A stretch of 51,018 bases of DNA from an uncultured Ruminococcus sp. (GTDB lineage Bacteria > Bacillota > Clostridia > Oscillospirales > Ruminococcaceae): contig CADAES010000012.1 of assembly GCA_902786975.1 (NCBI GenBank), positions 1 to 51,018 on the forward strand, given 5' to 3'. Below, one piece after another: positions 1-18,610 of the stretch. The translations under genes and the position numbers were made by a program. Positions within the stretch are counted from its first letter, which is position 1. Every line of letters starts with the position of its first letter. The notes under the pieces are model-generated. The model searched no databases, was not told where the DNA came from, and was given only the letters and a program-made list of their open reading frames with translations.

Positions 1-191
1 CATTCAAGTCACGACAAACCAAGCTTCGCTTGCTACAGCGTTAGCCACTTAGGGTTTCGGTGGGAGATTTATTCTCACCACCGAAAGACTAAGATGACCA
101 CTTCTCGTCTGTCGCCTCGGTCGTTGCTTATGCTGCGCATAGGTGTCCACCGGACACCCGCAACCTAAGAGGCGGGGGACATAGGTCGTGG
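1..191 (-). ncRNA. Structured RNA element, cut by window start (possible IscB/HEARO-type omega RNA)
   Basis: The stretch has no convincing ORF but dense nested pairing. An outer stem CGCCTC/GAGGCG (113-118 with 169-174) encloses GTTGC/GCAAC (123-127 with 160-164), a small hairpin ATGC/GCAT (130-140) and a perfect hairpin GGTGTCC/GGACACC (142-158). A second long hairpin pairs CTTAG/CTAAG (48-52, 89-93) and TTTCGGTGG/CCACCGAAA (55-63, 78-86). Read on the minus strand it starts right after the neighbouring lipoprotein stop and ends near an ATG at 3-1, so any ORF would lie outside the window. This layout (guide-side flank, scaffold, ORF) fits HEARO/IscB omega RNAs. An IS200/IS605 end with TnpB reRNA is the alternative. 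The structure is seen; the identity and strand are inferred. Confidence 0.5.
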
Positions 192-1463
192 TTATGCCTG
201 CATCTGATCTCTCATATCCTGCGGCATCTCTCCGCGCATACCGCCTTTCATTCCGCCTCTCATTCCGCCTCTGCCACCCATCATGGACTGAGGGATATTG
301 TCTGTCTGGGTACCGTTTATGATTATCGTTCCGCCGTTGTAGGAGGCTGTTCCGTCATAATCAAATGACGAGCCGGATGTTGTTATATCAACAGTTCCGC
401 CGTTGACGATGATATCGCCGTTTGAATCAATGCCGTCGGTATCACCGTCAGCCATTGTAATCTTTATATCGCCGCCGTTTATCTCGATAGTCGGTGTGGA
501 ATTGCTCTTGTTCTTGTTGCCTGCATTGATGCCGTCGTCTGATGAGGTGATATTCAGCTTGCCGCCGTTTATCGTTACAAGCGTTGACTCGATGCCCTCT
601 GCCGCATTCAGCTCAAAGTTTCCACCGTCAACCGTCACCGCAGTATTGCCCTGTATCGCATCGCTCTTAGCGGTTATCTTGAACGTACCGTCATAAATGA
701 CTATAATGCCAAGCGTTTTGTCCTCATCGTTCTCGCAGTGCAAAGCGTCCTTGTCGGAGTTCACGGTAAAAGTACCTGCGCAGATAAGGATACGGTCGTT
801 TGCCTCGATGCTGTCGAGTTTGCTGGTTATCTCGTAAGTTCCGCCTGTCACCTTGATATCGTCCTTACCGGAGATGCCGTTGCCGTTTGCAGAGCTTATC
901 ACCAGAGTTCCGGTGCCGTTGAAAACGAGGTCGTCCTTTGAAAAGATGACTGCGTCGGTGTTGGTGTCGCCGTCGGACTTGAAGCTTCCGCTAACGCTCA
1001 GCGTGCTTTGCTTATCGGTCGTGGTGACAAAGCATTTATCGGCTGAAACGACGTAAATTGCGGGGAAATCGTCATTTGTGATGCTTACTCCGTCAAGCAC
1101 GAGCTGTATCTTCGCATTGTCGGGAGCATTGACCTTCACGGTGCAGTTCTTCGCTGTTCCGCTTATAACGTAAACGCCTTCCTCGGTTATATCTATTGTC
1201 TGTCCGTCGGAAACGGTGACAGACTTTGCGCTTGATGTATCGGCTGTCTGCTGAAGGTCACGCTCGGTATAAAGGTCATTCTTATCGGAGGACACCTTTG
1301 TTATCCCCGAAATATCCGAGCTATCCGGACTGCCGCTGTCCTGCGATACAGACGATGCAGAAGCTGTCTGCGAGGTGCTGTTATCCGACTCCGAACAGCC
1401 TGTAAATACAAGCGTCGCTGCGAGAATGACCGAAGCTATAATTGCACAACTCTTTTTTAACAT
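192..1463 (-). CDS. Carbohydrate-binding beta-helix lipoprotein (DUF4353/Cthe_2159-like)
   Basis: A 423-residue predicted lipoprotein. A signal peptide ends in the lipobox LVFTGC (Cys about 23), followed by a Ser/Thr-rich linker to about residue 75. Then come repeated short beta turns of the type GTFxIxxxxDAI, VDGGNFEL and INGGxIxI, as expected for a right-handed parallel beta-helix, and a Gly/Met-rich tail (GGMRGGMKGGM). Proteins of this type are extracellular polysaccharide binders in cellulolytic clostridia, so surface binding of plant polysaccharide is the likely role. The start is supported by CGGAGG upstream. It appears monocistronic, with a dyad and a -10-like box upstream. The family is fairly clear; the ligand is not. 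Confidence 0.8.
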   Translation of the reverse strand: MLKKSCAIIASVILAATLVFTGCSESDNSTSQTASASSVSQDSGSPDSSDISGITKVSSDKNDLYTERDLQQTADTSSAKSVTVSDGQTIDITEEGVYVISGTAKNCTVKVNAPDNAKIQLVLDGVSITNDDFPAIYVVSADKCFVTTTDKQSTLSVSGSFKSDGDTNTDAVIFSKDDLVFNGTGTLVISSANGNGISGKDDIKVTGGTYEITSKLDSIEANDRILICAGTFTVNSDKDALHCENDEDKTLGIIVIYDGTFKITAKSDAIQGNTAVTVDGGNFELNAAEGIESTLVTINGGKLNITSSDDGINAGNKNKSNSTPTIEINGGDIKITMADGDTDGIDSNGDIIVNGGTVDITTSGSSFDYDGTASYNGGTIIINGTQTDNIPQSMMGGRGGMRGGMKGGMRGEMPQDMRDQMQA

Positions 1464-11833: not shown

Positions 11834-12316
11834 ATGGATTTGTTTACTTATGAAGAAAAAGCCGCCATGGTGGTCGGTTTAATTATCGGTGTTGCTATTG
11901 CCGCAACTGTATGGGGCTTCGTTATTCGCTACATTATGAAAACAAAGGGCTATCAGAATCTCGGCGCGTGGTTCTGCTGCGGTTTCTTCCTCGGCATTAT
12001 CGGTCTTGTGATCGCTATCACCCGCCCCGATCTCAAAAATCAGCCTTTCCAAAACGGCAATCCTTATTTCAATCAGCAGCCATACGGTCAGCCGATGCAG
12101 CAGCCATACGGTCAGCCGATGCAGCAGCCTTACGGGCAGCCGCCGATGGGTCAGCCTATGCAATACGGTCAGCCTATGGGACAGCCGCCGTACAACAGTC
12201 AGCCTACGCCGCAGAACACTATTCCCGGACAAATGGCCGGCGTCCGCTGTCAGCAGTGCGGAATGATGAACAATCCCGGGTCGGGCTTCTGCTCTGCCTG
12301 CGGAAACAAGCTCTGA
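11834..12316 (+). CDS. Membrane/zinc-ribbon protein 1 of an array
   Basis: 160 residues from the ATG at 11834, with GGGGGTG 7 bp upstream. An N-terminal hydrophobic region (VVGLIIGVAIAATVWGFVI) is followed by KTKGYQNLGAWFCCGFF and a second helix ending in TRPDLK. A Gln/Pro-rich linker has four or more QPYGQPMQ-type repeats. A C-terminal zinc ribbon CQQCGMMN...FCSACGNKL closes the protein. Four of the next five genes share the same plan. Such ribbons usually mediate protein contacts; function unknown. Confidence 0.8.
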   Translation: MDLFTYEEKAAMVVGLIIGVAIAATVWGFVIRYIMKTKGYQNLGAWFCCGFFLGIIGLVIAITRPDLKNQPFQNGNPYFNQQPYGQPMQQPYGQPMQQPYGQPPMGQPMQYGQPMGQPPYNSQPTPQNTIPGQMAGVRCQQCGMMNNPGSGFCSACGNKL

Positions 12317-12326
12317 TATAAAACGC

Positions 12327-12359
12327 AACAGGCTCCCGAAAGCGAGAGCCTGTTTTTTT
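12327..12359 (+). terminator. Intrinsic terminator
   Basis: AACAGGCTC/GAGCCTGTT hairpin with a TTTTTTT tail, after zinc-ribbon gene 1. Confidence 0.88.
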
Positions 12360-12380
12360 GCAGCAAAATGTCATAAGTGC

Positions 12381-12409
12381 TTGACTTTCGCTGAAATCGG
12401 GTTTACAAT
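12381..12409 (+). promoter_or_regulatory. Promoter of zinc-ribbon genes 2-4
   Basis: TTGACT (12381-12386), 17-bp spacer, TACAAT (12404-12409), then AGGAGG before the ATG at 12439. Confidence 0.8.
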
Positions 12410-12438
12410 ATACCCATATATTATAGGAGGTCTATTCT

Positions 12439-12804
12439 ATGATTTTAAGCTTTGATTTTGTAGAAAGACTCGGCGGAGGTTTGGCCAAGGGTCTTATTGC
12501 CGGCTCTATATTAGCTGTTATAGCGATCATAATCGGCTTCGTCTGCGTAAGCATCATGAAGAAAAAAGGCTACGACATGCTTGTTGGCTGGTTCTTCTGC
12601 GGACTTTGCCTCGGCGTCATCGGGCTTATCATCTGCCTGTGCATTGAGGACAAGACCAAGCAGATCCCGCCAAGCCCATATGACAGCTACGTCAACCCGT
12701 CGATGCCCTACGACCACCAGACAGGTGCACAGTGTCCTCACTGCGGTATGACCAACCCTCTTGGCGCACATTTCTGCAACGGCTGCGGGAACAAGCTCAA
12801 CTGA
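12439..12804 (+). CDS. Membrane/zinc-ribbon protein 2 of an array
   Basis: 121 residues: N-terminal helix (about 15-38), the family motif MKKKGYDMLVGWFFCG, a second helix (LCLGVIGLIICLCIEDK), a short Pro-rich linker and the zinc ribbon CPHCGMTN...FCNGCGNKLN. Its final coding bases match those of gene 4 almost exactly, which points to recent duplication or gene conversion. RBS AGGAGG. It starts a three-gene unit with the genes at 12824 and 13140. Confidence 0.82.
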   Translation: MILSFDFVERLGGGLAKGLIAGSILAVIAIIIGFVCVSIMKKKGYDMLVGWFFCGLCLGVIGLIICLCIEDKTKQIPPSPYDSYVNPSMPYDHQTGAQCPHCGMTNPLGAHFCNGCGNKLN

Positions 12805-12823
12805 ACTGAAAAGGAGACTATAT

Positions 12824-13117
12824 ATGAACTTAACTATATTTGGTCAACCGAATGGTCCGTCACTGTCCGAGCTGGGACTACAGCTCCTTATCGACATAGC
12901 TGTATGTGCAGCGATCGTAGCCGTATTACGCTTCATTTTTGCTCCGATGAACAGAAAAGTCAAGAACAAGATCACAAATGTTATAGCTCCGCCCGAACAG
13001 CCGACGCCGGATAAGACCTTTCAGGATCAGGCACTCGGCATTCGCTGTACCCATTGCGATACCACAAATCCTGCCGGCGTTACGACCTGTATCCAGTGCG
13101 GCAAAAAGCTTATCTGA
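12824..13117 (+). CDS. Membrane/zinc-ribbon protein 3 of an array (divergent)
   Basis: 97 residues from the ATG at 12824 (AAGGAGA upstream); a longer frame from 12761 overlaps gene 2 and has no RBS. One membrane helix (LQLLIDIAVCAAIVAVLRFIF) and a C-terminal zinc ribbon CTHCDTTN...CIQCGKKLI. It lacks the KGY...WF motif and the second helix of its neighbours, so it is the most divergent member or a different partner subunit. Confidence 0.78.
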   Translation: MNLTIFGQPNGPSLSELGLQLLIDIAVCAAIVAVLRFIFAPMNRKVKNKITNVIAPPEQPTPDKTFQDQALGIRCTHCDTTNPAGVTTCIQCGKKLI

Positions 13118-13139
13118 ACTGACATATATGGAGTAAAAA

Positions 13140-13514
13140 ATGATAACGATATTCGGATCGGATCTGAGCAGGGTCGAACCTTTTTTGAAGGTAATGGTAT
13201 TTCTGATATTCGGCTTGCCTGTATTAATGATAGAATTAGTTATAGGTCTGAGCTGCCGTGACAGAATGAAAAGCAAAGGCTATGCGAACTGCAACTCGTG
13301 GTTTTTCATCGGTTTCTTTCTGAGCTTTATCGGGCTTATCATCTGCCTTTGTATGCCGGATAAAGGCTCGCCGATGCCGCCCGGACCCGGTTTTGAGCAG
13401 TATGTCAACCCGCCTGTACATGATCGGCAAATGCAAGTGCAGTGTCCGCAATGCGGTGCGATGAACCCGACCGGTTCTAACTTCTGCAACGGCTGCGGGA
13501 ACAAGCTCAACTGA
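13140..13514 (+). CDS. Membrane/zinc-ribbon protein 4 of an array
   Basis: 124 residues with the array plan: first helix (FLKVMVFLIFGLPVLMIELVI), KSKGYANCNSWFFIGFF, second helix ending CLCMPDK, Pro/Gly linker and ribbon CPQCGAMN...FCNGCGNKLN. The RBS is weak (GGAG, 7 bp upstream). It follows gene 3 by 22 bp and is followed by a terminator. Confidence 0.8.
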   Translation: MITIFGSDLSRVEPFLKVMVFLIFGLPVLMIELVIGLSCRDRMKSKGYANCNSWFFIGFFLSFIGLIICLCMPDKGSPMPPGPGFEQYVNPPVHDRQMQVQCPQCGAMNPTGSNFCNGCGNKLN

Positions 13515-13522
13515 TACACAAT

Positions 13523-13550
13523 GCCCTCACAGCGAGGGCTTGCTTTTTTT
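13523..13550 (+). terminator. Intrinsic terminator
   Basis: GCCCTC-ACAGC-GAGGGC hairpin, then TTGCTTTTTTT. The same hairpin recurs after gene 6. Confidence 0.88.
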
Positions 13551-13594
13551 ATTACCTCTTGCCTCTCATTTCCTACCTCTTAACGCTGATCCGC

Positions 13595-13622
13595 TTGACA
13601 ATTATGGCGCAAAGAGTATAAT
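13595..13622 (+). promoter_or_regulatory. Promoter of zinc-ribbon genes 5-6
   Basis: TTGACA (13595-13600), 16-bp spacer, TATAAT (13617-13622). Confidence 0.82.
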
Positions 13623-13657
13623 AATCTCATAATCATATTTTACAGGGAGTGATATCT

Positions 13658-14047
13658 ATGGCTTTATCTAAAATCTGGTTCTTTTTTGAAAGCTCCGAAG
13701 AAGCTGCTGCTTTCATTACATCTTTTATATATATCTTTTTTATAGCAACTCAAGTGACTCTCGGTTTTTACTGCATGATACTTATGAAGAAAAAAGGCTA
13801 CGGCTTATCTCTCGCATGGTTCTTATTAGGAGCTATGCTGACCTTTATCGGACTTCTAATATGCCTTAGCAAGCCAAAGATGCAATATCAGTCTGCGCCG
13901 TTTCAGCAGTTCGGTCAATACTACAATCAACCGCCCATGCTGCAGCCGTATGAAGCTGTGCATTGCAGCCAATGCGGTGCGGATAATCCGACGGGTTCAA
14001 ACTACTGCCACGAATGCGGTGTATTCTTAGACCGCAGCAAGCTTTGA
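13658..14047 (+). CDS. Membrane/zinc-ribbon protein 5 of an array
   Basis: 129 residues from the ATG at 13658, with GGGAGTG upstream (an in-frame GTG at 13649 is part of that RBS). First helix around FITSFIYIFFIATQVTLGFY, then MKKKGYGLSLAWFLLGAM, second helix ending CLSKPK, a Gln/Tyr/Pro linker, and ribbon CSQCGADN...YCHECGVFL. Co-transcribed with gene 6. Confidence 0.8.
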   Translation: MALSKIWFFFESSEEAAAFITSFIYIFFIATQVTLGFYCMILMKKKGYGLSLAWFLLGAMLTFIGLLICLSKPKMQYQSAPFQQFGQYYNQPPMLQPYEAVHCSQCGADNPTGSNYCHECGVFLDRSKL

Positions 14048-14059
14048 GGAGGTGACACC

Positions 14060-14431
14060 ATGGGAGGTATATTATATCTCGTAGTATACTTTTATTATGG
14101 GATGATAATCTTACTGATAGTAATGGAGATCCTTTTTGGTGTCGCCAGCAGAGAGATGATGAAGCTCAAAGGCTCCTTAAACTATAATGCATGGTTTCTT
14201 GCCGGCTTATTACTAAGCATTATCGGTGTTATAATAACTCTGCTGATGCCCGACAAAAACCCGAGCGAGCCACAGCCGGCTTCGTTTCCGCAAGGCTTCG
14301 ATGCGCAGTATCAGCCGTCCGCATCACCGATCATACTCAACGAGCAGACAGCTGACGCCTGCCCGCACTGCCTTGAGCTGACTCCGAAAGGCTCACACTT
14401 TTGCATCAAATGCGGCTGCAAGCTGGACTGA
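14060..14431 (+). CDS. Membrane/zinc-ribbon protein 6 of an array
   Basis: 123 residues: first helix (YFYYGMIILLIVMEILFGVA), then MKLKGSLNYNAWFLAGLLL (the GY of the motif is changed to GS), second helix ending LMPDK, a Ser/Pro linker and ribbon CPHCLELT...FCIKCGCKLD. RBS GAGGAGG, 12 bp after gene 5. A terminator follows. Confidence 0.8.
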   Translation: MGGILYLVVYFYYGMIILLIVMEILFGVASREMMKLKGSLNYNAWFLAGLLLSIIGVIITLLMPDKNPSEPQPASFPQGFDAQYQPSASPIILNEQTADACPHCLELTPKGSHFCIKCGCKLD

Positions 14432-17194: not shown

Positions 17195-18610
17195 ATGGCA
17201 AAGCTCAAAAGACTGGCATCGGCAGTAGTCAGCATCGCACTGTCAGCAGTTATGCTGACAAGCTGCAACAGCGGAAGATACTGCATGAGCTATGACGACA
17301 AGAACATCAACTCGGGCGTGTATATCTACAACATCATGAGCGAGCTGCTCAACCAGCAGTACATGATGTACTACACGGGCGAGGACGCAAACAAGCTTAT
17401 GGAAAAGGAGATAGAAGGCAAGAAGATGCCCACCTATCTCGAAGATATGGCAATGAAGAACACCAAGGAATACTGTGCTCTCAGCACTCAGTTCAAGGAG
17501 CTCGGTCTTTCGTTCTCGGACGAGGACAAGAAGTCTATCAGCACCTCAGCCACCAACGCTTACAACGCTCAGAAGTCTATGTTCGAGGAAATGGGAATTT
17601 CCAAGGAATCTATCAAAATGGTGATAGAGCAGGGCAAGATGAGAGATCAGATCTTTGAGTATTTCTACGGCAAGGACGGAAAGGAAGCTGTTTCCGACGA
17701 TGACCTTGAAAAGTACGTGAACGAAAGCTATCTCAGATACAAGACCATAAGCATCAGCAAGAGCACCAAGTCTGACAGCTCCGAGAAGGACAAGGAAAAC
17801 AAGGAGAACGAGGAGCTTATCGAAAAGTATTTCAAGCAGGCTGAGGGCAAGAGCTTCGCAGATTTTGACCAAGTTATAGCTGATTACGACAAGTACGTTG
17901 AGGAAAAGAACAAGAAGGACACCAATTCGAGCAAGTCTGACGATTCAAGCAGTTCTGCCGACGATTCGTCGAGCAAGGTCGGCGAGCCAGACAGCTCCTC
18001 CAAGGCTGAAAGCTCTTCACAGGCTGACAGTTCTTCGCAGGCTGACAGTTCTTCGCAGGCAGACAGTTCCTCGCAGGCAGACAGTTCCTCACAGGCAGAC
18101 AGTTCCTCACAGGCAGACAGCTCTTCGGCAAGCGACGATACATCTTCCGCAGCTGATACAAACTCACAGGCTGACGAGCACGACCACGACCACGACGACG
18201 ACAGCTCACAGGCTGAGGCTTCCAAAGAGAACGACAAGTACAAGAACGAGTCGATGGTCAACTACGCAAATCTGACAGAGACTACTCTCAAAGAGGATTT
18301 CGGAAAGATGCTCACCGAAGTCAAGGACATGAAAAACGGTGATATCAAAAAGTACACGAGCGAATCGACATACTACATCATCATCAAGGGTGATGTTACC
18401 GAGAGAAGCAAGGACTACGTTTCAAACAACCGTGACACCGTCCTCAAAGAAATGAAGGACAAGGATTTTGAGAAGAAGATAGAAAAGTGGGAAGACGATC
18501 TGAACATAAAGGTCGACAACAATTCTATCAAGAGATATTCCGCTAATTCGATATACAAAAGATACAGCGATTATCTTTCCAAGAACAAGAGCAGCAACAC
18601 CGAAAGCTAA
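17195..18610 (+). CDS. PrsA/SurA-like foldase lipoprotein with Ser/Asp-rich insert
   Basis: 471 residues from the ATG at 17195 (AAAGGATT upstream; an earlier in-frame ATG at 17150 would spoil the signal peptide). Lipobox VMLTSC (Cys about 24). The SurA-N-like helical domain includes KMVIEQGKMRDQIFEYFYG and VSDDDLEKYVNESYLRYK. A parvulin-like C-terminal part contains STYYIIIKGDV and WEDDLNIKVDNN. About 120 residues of Ser/Asp/Gln low-complexity sequence with six SSQADS repeats and a HDHDHDDD run interrupt the domain. It likely helps fold exported proteins; isomerase activity is doubtful. Confidence 0.75.
   Translation: MAKLKRLASAVVSIALSAVMLTSCNSGRYCMSYDDKNINSGVYIYNIMSELLNQQYMMYYTGEDANKLMEKEIEGKKMPTYLEDMAMKNTKEYCALSTQFKELGLSFSDEDKKSISTSATNAYNAQKSMFEEMGISKESIKMVIEQGKMRDQIFEYFYGKDGKEAVSDDDLEKYVNESYLRYKTISISKSTKSDSSEKDKENKENEELIEKYFKQAEGKSFADFDQVIADYDKYVEEKNKKDTNSSKSDDSSSSADDSSSKVGEPDSSSKAESSSQADSSSQADSSSQADSSSQADSSSQADSSSQADSSSASDDTSSAADTNSQADEHDHDHDDDSSQAEASKENDKYKNESMVNYANLTETTLKEDFGKMLTEVKDMKNGDIKKYTSESTYYIIIKGDVTERSKDYVSNNRDTVLKEMKDKDFEKKIEKWEDDLNIKVDNNSIKRYSANSIYKRYSDYLSKNKSSNTES
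18011..18118 (+). repeat. Six tandem 18-bp units inside the PrsA-like gene
   Basis: Six near-identical units coding SSQADS, starting with AGCTCTTCACAGGCTGAC. Differences are mostly at third codon positions. Such arrays tend to vary in copy number by slippage. Confidence 0.9.

Follow-up and report, generated by a model that had tools for sequence, protein, structure and literature searches.

A densely folded contig-edge sequence of an uncultured Ruminococcus sp. as the probable truncated copy of a mobile, modular and gene-free element

The first 191 nucleotides of the stretch of Ruminococcus sp. DNA analyzed here (51,018 nucleotides, referred to as the window) carry no gene and fold into a dense, nested structure at the very beginning of contig G000:C12, with no assembled sequence to the left of base 1. 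The question raised by this locus is what such a sequence represents. An earlier note had read it as a structured RNA element cut by the window edge, possibly the HEARO omega RNA of an IscB nuclease, with a TnpB reRNA or an IS605-type end given in brackets. We consider it probable (about 0.6), judging from sequence comparison, that positions 1-191, read on the minus strand, represent a truncated copy of a non-autonomous, gene-free element that inserts after a TATAA-like pentanucleotide with no visible target duplication; that the element is a mobile insertion element at all is close to certain.

Folding of window positions 1-191 was far stronger than that of shuffled sequence on both strands (z -6.3 to -6.5), which bears out the structured element claimed for this edge. 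The minimum free energies obtained with RNA parameters were -79.2 kcal/mol for the minus strand (z -6.31) and -83.7 for the plus strand (z -6.45), DNA folding parameters gave a z of -6.34 for the minus strand, and in each case none of 200 shuffles folded equally well or better. The pairings named previously were all present in the fold: CGCCTC with GAGGCG, enclosing GTTGC with GCAAC, which in turn enclose two hairpins, and in addition the long second hairpin. Our assignment of 1..191 (minus strand) to a truncated copy of a modular mobile element is based on blastn copies, on a match to covariance model R1 (3-191, minus strand, 57.7 bits, E 2.5e-14; weaker mirror match on the plus strand at 9-128, 23.9 bits) and on a sister copy in the same genome (G000:C31:2431-2644). 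This sister copy is 98% identical over query positions 1-191 and retains the right end, of which about 23 nt are missing from the window copy.

Read on the minus strand, the order of parts is target ATAA, tip CCACGAC with the 5' arm of the outer stem, hairpin H1, module B, a short variable arm, GTCGTG, CTTGAA and a 25-bp block. The target ATAA (192..195, minus strand; CATAA here, TATAA in the family consensus) was defined from the sequence, the left-junction tally and the empty sites of other copies. Its TAA doubles as the stop codon of the neighboring gene, and the minus-strand start at the lipoprotein stop (TAA, 192-194) had been placed correctly. This gene (192..1463, minus strand) lies outside the element and encodes a protein with a Cthe_2159 carbohydrate-binding domain (PF14262, E 4.9e-76) whose N-terminus reads as that of a lipoprotein. 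The outer stem is formed by CACGAC (185..190, minus strand) and GTCGTG (10..15, minus strand), both identified by the fold and by covariation in relatives. Hairpin H1 (CCCCGCC-TCTTA-GGCGG) is opened in the window copy by module A, an optional three-way-junction arm that comprises the CGCCTC/GAGGCG and GTTGC/GCAAC stems with their two hairpins (113..174, minus strand; fold and copy comparison). It is followed by the long hairpin of module B (43..100, minus strand; fold and covariation) and by the variable short arm with AGCAAGCGAAGCTTGG (16..42, minus strand; alignment A2), which occurs in some own-genome copies, a GGGGCTAACGCCCC-type hairpin taking its place elsewhere.

The inner end CTTGAA (3..8, minus strand) constitutes the last six bases of the outer module, as read from the sequence and from complete copies, in which the 25-bp right-end block TGACGGGGCGATGCCCCTTATTGAA follows TTGAA and runs on beyond the window-edge position. 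Comparison of complete copies identified the TG at 1..2 (minus strand) as the first two bases of this block, the remainder lying past the contig edge. The ATG that had been noted at the edge is therefore present as letters but is not the start codon of a next-door gene. The structure is indeed cut by the window edge, since the contig begins inside the element. Because of this, and because further copies are likewise located at contig ends (C31:1, C15:4 and the ends of C43 and C41), the assembly most likely broke within the repeat at this edge. Two other repeats were seen elsewhere in the window: a 36-nt sequence that recurs seven times at 17985-18128, its copies overlapping at an 18-nt period, probably a short coding repeat, and a 75-nt motif present five times at 12245-14431, with spaced Cys codons and zinc-ribbon-like by reading.

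The elements span 50-290 bp, most often 130-150 bp, extra arms bringing them to as much as about 280 bp, and contain no gene; no Y1 transposase is present inside them, this length being too short to encode one. Palindromes are located near both termini; the left tip is separated from H1 by about 15 nt, and the right tip from the GGGGC hairpin of the 25-bp block by 8 nt. Closer examination of the copies revealed that the inner modules are optional or repeated. Module A can be present, absent as in the short form (e.g. L012), inverted together with H1 in copies of another species (L077, L082, L086 and L122) or replaced. Module C (L003, L005 and L081) is an arm similar to A with different but complementary stems, module B is duplicated in L090, and internal deletions were found in L014, L108, L116 and L120. 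Some copies are arranged head to tail, TTGAA of one being directly followed by CCACGAC of the next. No autonomous copy, in which a gene would lie between the two ends, was found among ends spaced by up to 2.5 kb.

The end block also occurs by itself. In eight places (L082, L087, L121, L125, L266, L270, L271 and L274) it was found, exact or as a variant of 1-2 bases, after TATAA with no outer module, the block in L082 being one base shorter and that in L125 lying within the remains of another copy and thus possibly an internal deletion. Other blocks with no outer module were preceded by TTATGA (L045, L046 and L173), TATAG (L254), TGTAA (L259) or unrelated bases (L110 and L279). Such solitary blocks may represent minimal mobile units or remnants left by precise loss of the outer module; in the empty-site search for lone blocks, one flank was itself a repeat. 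In four genomes (L045, L046, L173 and L186) the end block lies right after the stop of a gene that is 98-99% identical among them and acetyltransferase-like by reading, preceded in L045 by a tRNA; near identity of the gene and position of the block at its stop in all four suggest that both were moved by horizontal transfer. Two further arrangements were observed, an abnormal element end after an inverted arm, fused to other sequence (L252 4873, G045), and, directly before the inserted element in the left flank of tandem copies (L048, G009:C41), a minisatellite whose TTGTATCAAATATAA units all end in TATAA.

Other genomic copies, whose absence the earlier note had listed as counting against its reading, are plentiful. 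Blast with the 191 bp against the own genome (2.37 Mb, 56 contigs) returned 39 matches, a number not to be read as the copy number, since in some cases a single copy gave several matches and two contig-end copies may be halves of one. The cleanest filled/empty pair consists of 134 bp at G009:C41:11065-11198 that are missing in G004:C17, with flank identities of 98.9% (262 nt) and 95.9% (268 nt) and no extra base; the empty site reads CATCCTTATAA followed by CGCATAACACC, and the element sits exactly at the boundary between the two. When the flanks of six filled sites were compared with 29 genomes of the genus, junction-spanning matches were obtained for at least five sites. Four further filled sites could be aligned with 13 empty loci, resulting in five filled/empty site comparisons in all, in each of which the insertion point is directly after a TATAA-like site. 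TATAA itself is present at the junction in 8 of the 14 empty loci (L038, L285, L287, L290, L291, L292, L296 and L312), the target differing by substitutions in L283, L284, L286, L288 and L289, and the junction alignment containing gaps in L289 and L295. No duplicated stretch was detected in the 14 empty loci; a 2-bp AA duplication is possible, as target and element both end in AA.

The left-junction tally with element-only detection gave TATAA in 54 of 70 cases and TTGAA in three tandem copies, while a larger set collected under a looser rule gave TATAA in 77 of 94. The right-hand flank of the insertions exhibited no conservation. None of 102 sites was inside an ORF by a crude ORF call. A frame open for 80 codons or more preceded the junction TAA in 8 of 85 cases, compared with 3 and 3 in the control frames, a weak sign at most of insertion at stop codons. 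The GC skew of the element strand was positive at 62 of 93 sites (P 0.0017), a result confounded with gene orientation; positive skew is the direction expected for insertion into the lagging-strand template. It is comparison between copies and genomes that establishes mobility, along with ends, target, modular make-up and the conserved pairing of the cloverleaf.

For the latter, 41 distinct short-form rows were analyzed, obtained from 49 short references of which six were left out (43) and L183 was dropped for a false left-end match (42). The named structure was paired in 95.8% of cells, compared with 93.5% in shuffles, and two-sided changes numbered 36, compared with 11.7 in shuffles and no more than 7 with partners slid; the module B column pair 60-88 exhibited a two-sided change in 17 of the 41 rows. 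Both strands of 41 distinct related copies folded alike (means -71.42 and -71.47), and wobble pairs showed no clear strand bias. Since the strands fold equally on average and an arm is inverted in another species, we infer that folding is of no less importance at the level of DNA. In distant members the outer stem is changed, but the TATAA-like target is retained, as are the H1 core and the long hairpin; their right ends differ (a hairpin plus TTTGAA, or TTTAAA) yet are target-like. In 24 wider relatives the outer arm paired with its own 3' region over a mean run of 7.2 bases, compared with 5.5 for swapped partners, and runs of at least 7 were found in 16 of 24 own pairs and in 109 of 548 swapped ones. 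These rows are related, their 23 different arm strings including several with a common CACGAC core, and the P value is therefore not strict; in L346 and L358 own pairing was no better than with swapped partners.

Covariance-model searches identified relatives in 13 of 197 genomes and 10 of 125 genera of the family, own genome included, with rough E-values and marginal weakest matches (e.g. G108, end block only, and G269). Of 29 genomes belonging to the genus, 9 contained the right-end pattern, and in named genomes the pattern occurred in 67 stretches, all titled Ruminococcus, Oscillospiraceae, Clostridiales or Clostridia. A few copies are present in the cultured Ruminococcus sp. FC2018. Among 30 relatives plus the own genome, eight of the 31 gave matches, all eight within the genus of the window genome. 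Copies were also found on two viral-collection contigs (L137 and L393), the 94-kb L393 carrying a distant family member between two genes; blastn of phage and plasmid collections with a distant member gave no match. A complete element of a second subfamily, with the outer stem GCTGCC/GGCAGC, is located on the minus strand of L396 at about 150-290 (G216:C25), in a genome rich in the first subfamily, with a broken Y1 gene about 1.3 kb away. In literature searches three strings from the element had no match, and among the papers listed the two 15-mers of the H1 hairpin were absent and no title described this element family.

Comparison with known systems places the family nearest to elements of the IS605 type. 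IS200/IS605 members such as IS608 and ISDra2 carry hairpins near both ends, insert 3' of a short target with no duplication and have a target-like right end. The elements described here share the near-end hairpins, the insertion 3' of a short target, the lack of duplication and the target-like right end. The IS605-type end bracketed in the earlier note consequently comes close to the best explanation as regards mobility, the fixed left target, the near-terminal hairpins and the absence of a visible target duplication; unlike IS200/IS605, however, the elements contain no transposase gene, and the scanned host Y1 loci lack these ends. Closer still are PATEs, the palindrome-associated transposable elements of Haloquadratum that are related to IS605-type transposons (PMC3119063). 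As described in that study, PATEs resemble our elements in being too short for a coding sequence, in carrying palindromes close to their ends, in lacking both terminal inverted repeats at the tips and target duplication (here with the possible exception of the 2-bp AA) and in having very short forms (PMC3119063). PATE movement was reported even though all IS200-type transposase genes of strain C23 are pseudogenes, the same mobilizer difficulty as encountered here (PMC3119063). Unlike PATEs as described there, our elements form a cloverleaf that an outer stem closes, their arms can be exchanged and inverted, the target is TATAA and a 25-bp block occurs by itself; a full-length IS605 element sharing their ends was not found, and the hosts are Clostridia rather than haloarchaea.

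Similarly, BOX elements of Streptococcus pneumoniae are modular intergenic repeats with strong predicted folding and variable inner modules, but as described they have terminal inverted repeats and target duplications, neither of which was seen here (PMC3049150). Among REP/RAYT systems, the end block (GACG plus palindrome) resembles on its other strand the hairpin of CGTC-tagged REPs, which as here are without a dedicated transposase, whereas their stems are of 8-9 bp starting with A-T pairs compared with a 5-bp GGGGC stem in our elements; that study names five phyla for these REPs, Firmicutes not being among them (PMC3733652). Classical MITEs combine terminal inverted repeats with target duplication, and neither was found, the right tip TTATTGAA not being the complement of the left tip CCACGACC. 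The family is thus mobile, modular, gene-free and PATE-like.

Because this anatomy resembles that of the IS605-derived PATEs, single-strand transposition by an HUH-like mechanism is the likeliest mode of movement, which we favor at slightly better than even odds. An HUH-type single-strand recombinase would act in trans on the folded single-stranded DNA, recognize the hairpins near both ends and cut on the left 3' of TATAA and on the right 3' of TTGAA, the latter 8 nt beyond the hairpin, and the excised element would be rejoined after another TATAA. TnpA of IS200/IS605 cuts and rejoins its own element in like manner. The right end TTGAA is itself target-like, which would explain both the head-to-tail joins with CCACGAC and the lone end blocks after TATAA.

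The enzyme may instead belong to a class other than Y1, for example another HUH enzyme (a relaxase or a replication initiator), a reverse transcriptase, an IS110-like enzyme, or a recombinase of the serine or the Xer-like tyrosine type, an alternative that we consider less likely than not. Among 26 element-bearing genomes (counting once those with the same contig coordinates: G045 and G216, G051 and G098, G053 and G008, G054 and G009, G046 and G040), a near full-length Y1 gene was present in seven (G000, G009, G012, G041, G046, G048 and G211), pieces or weak matches in five (G004, G008, G043, G045 and G052), and no Y1_Tnp match at E 0.001 in the remaining 14 (G006, G010, G016, G042, G044, G047, G049, G050, G051, G268, G253, G235, G198 and G286), so that tracking of the elements by Y1 was rejected. 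One of these Y1-free genomes, G268 (97% complete), carries copies that differ by at most 2 in 125 nt in eight places; three of these are contigs with the left flank only and three with the right flank only, which may pair up, leaving at least five distinct copies. Since they are nearly identical, the mobilizing enzyme was probably active recently in G268. On the other hand, draft and metagenome assemblies often lose repeated genes and multi-copy insertion sequences, which makes the absence of Y1 strong but not final evidence.

The AA at both ends would also be expected from exchange of a 2-bp core. When 1659 ORF products around 181 sites were clustered, 11 clusters recurred at no fewer than three loci. 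Inspection by eye assigned them to ABC transporters, a response regulator and further common families, along with one cluster of Xer-like tyrosine recombinases (L072, L079 and L360). In two genomes (L079 880-2101 and L360 442-1639) the recombinase gene (PF00589) is oriented alike relative to an element and ends about 70-90 bp from it, and a relative is located about 2.7 kb from an element in L072. This gene family, however, is within about 3 kb of only 3 of the 181 sites, by our estimate not clearly above chance given several relatives per genome, and a site-specific recombinase is expected to need a conserved right-hand flank, which these insertions lack. The Xer-like recombinase is consequently a weak lead.

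Movement by an ordinary Y1 TnpA of the same genome appears rather unlikely. Of the three Y1 genes in the own genome G000, one (C33) is intact and two are incomplete, and their IS200 surroundings had no similarity to the element above chance. Flanks of up to 1.5 kb, less at contig ends, were scanned around Y1 loci L061-L067, L138-L164, L194-L212 and L395-L398, and none had family-like ends at an IS end; the exceptions near Y1 loci were a solo-block-like sequence in L211 and the other-subfamily element in L396, neither at an IS end. On the grounds of the absent similarity and the lack of family-like ends at the scanned loci, the own Y1/IS200 elements were rejected as source.

A non-mobile cis-regulatory RNA or terminator, vertically inherited and duplicated, would account for the intergenic position, the strong fold and the compensatory changes; it is contradicted by presence and absence at orthologous sites, differing neighboring genes, the lack of strand preference in folding and the inversion of arms between copies, and as the sole explanation it is refuted by the empty sites, while secondary effects of the element on transcripts are possible. 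Least probable of all is a guide RNA of an IscB, IsrB or TnpB nuclease (HEARO/omega RNA or TnpB reRNA), for which the nested dense structure, the end near an ATG and the mobile-element context had spoken, and which is discarded on the grounds of the Rfam results, the absence of PF07282 from the own assembly, ordinary flanking proteins and the equal folding of both strands. All 4227 families of Rfam 15, which we take to include HEARO (RF02033), were searched with no match to the whole window at the gathering threshold; at E up to 10, positions 1-400 gave only a weak, unrelated snoRNA match (E 3.4), and nine loci with relatives gave only two tRNAs. A TnpB reRNA is unlikely in the own genome, as PF07282 had no match in assembly G000 (56 contigs, 90% complete), and of the 17 ORFs flanking eight own-genome copies, 10 matched ordinary families and none of these ten a nuclease or transposase. 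On one contig of the viral collection, a TnpB gene has an exact 19-nt match to the H1 core 115 bp upstream of it, about one chance match being expected by a rough estimate; this match hints at a link to TnpB elements, with which the hairpin core would be shared, and may be due to chance.

With the false lead of a guide-RNA nuclease removed, the locus is now represented by a mobile element family with defined ends, a defined target and five empty-site comparisons. More tentatively, and held at less than even odds, these elements might constitute a family-wide lineage of gut and rumen Oscillospiraceae, gene-free cloverleaf DNAs with exchangeable and invertible arms and a smallest unit of maybe 25 bp, moved by an enzyme other than an IS200-type Y1 transposase. 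The elements break assemblies, as most likely at the window edge. The movement of elements that have neither transposase nor target duplication, such as PATEs, small mobile repeats and CGTC REPs, becomes directly testable in this family, whose near-identical copies in some genomes indicate that its activity is probably recent.
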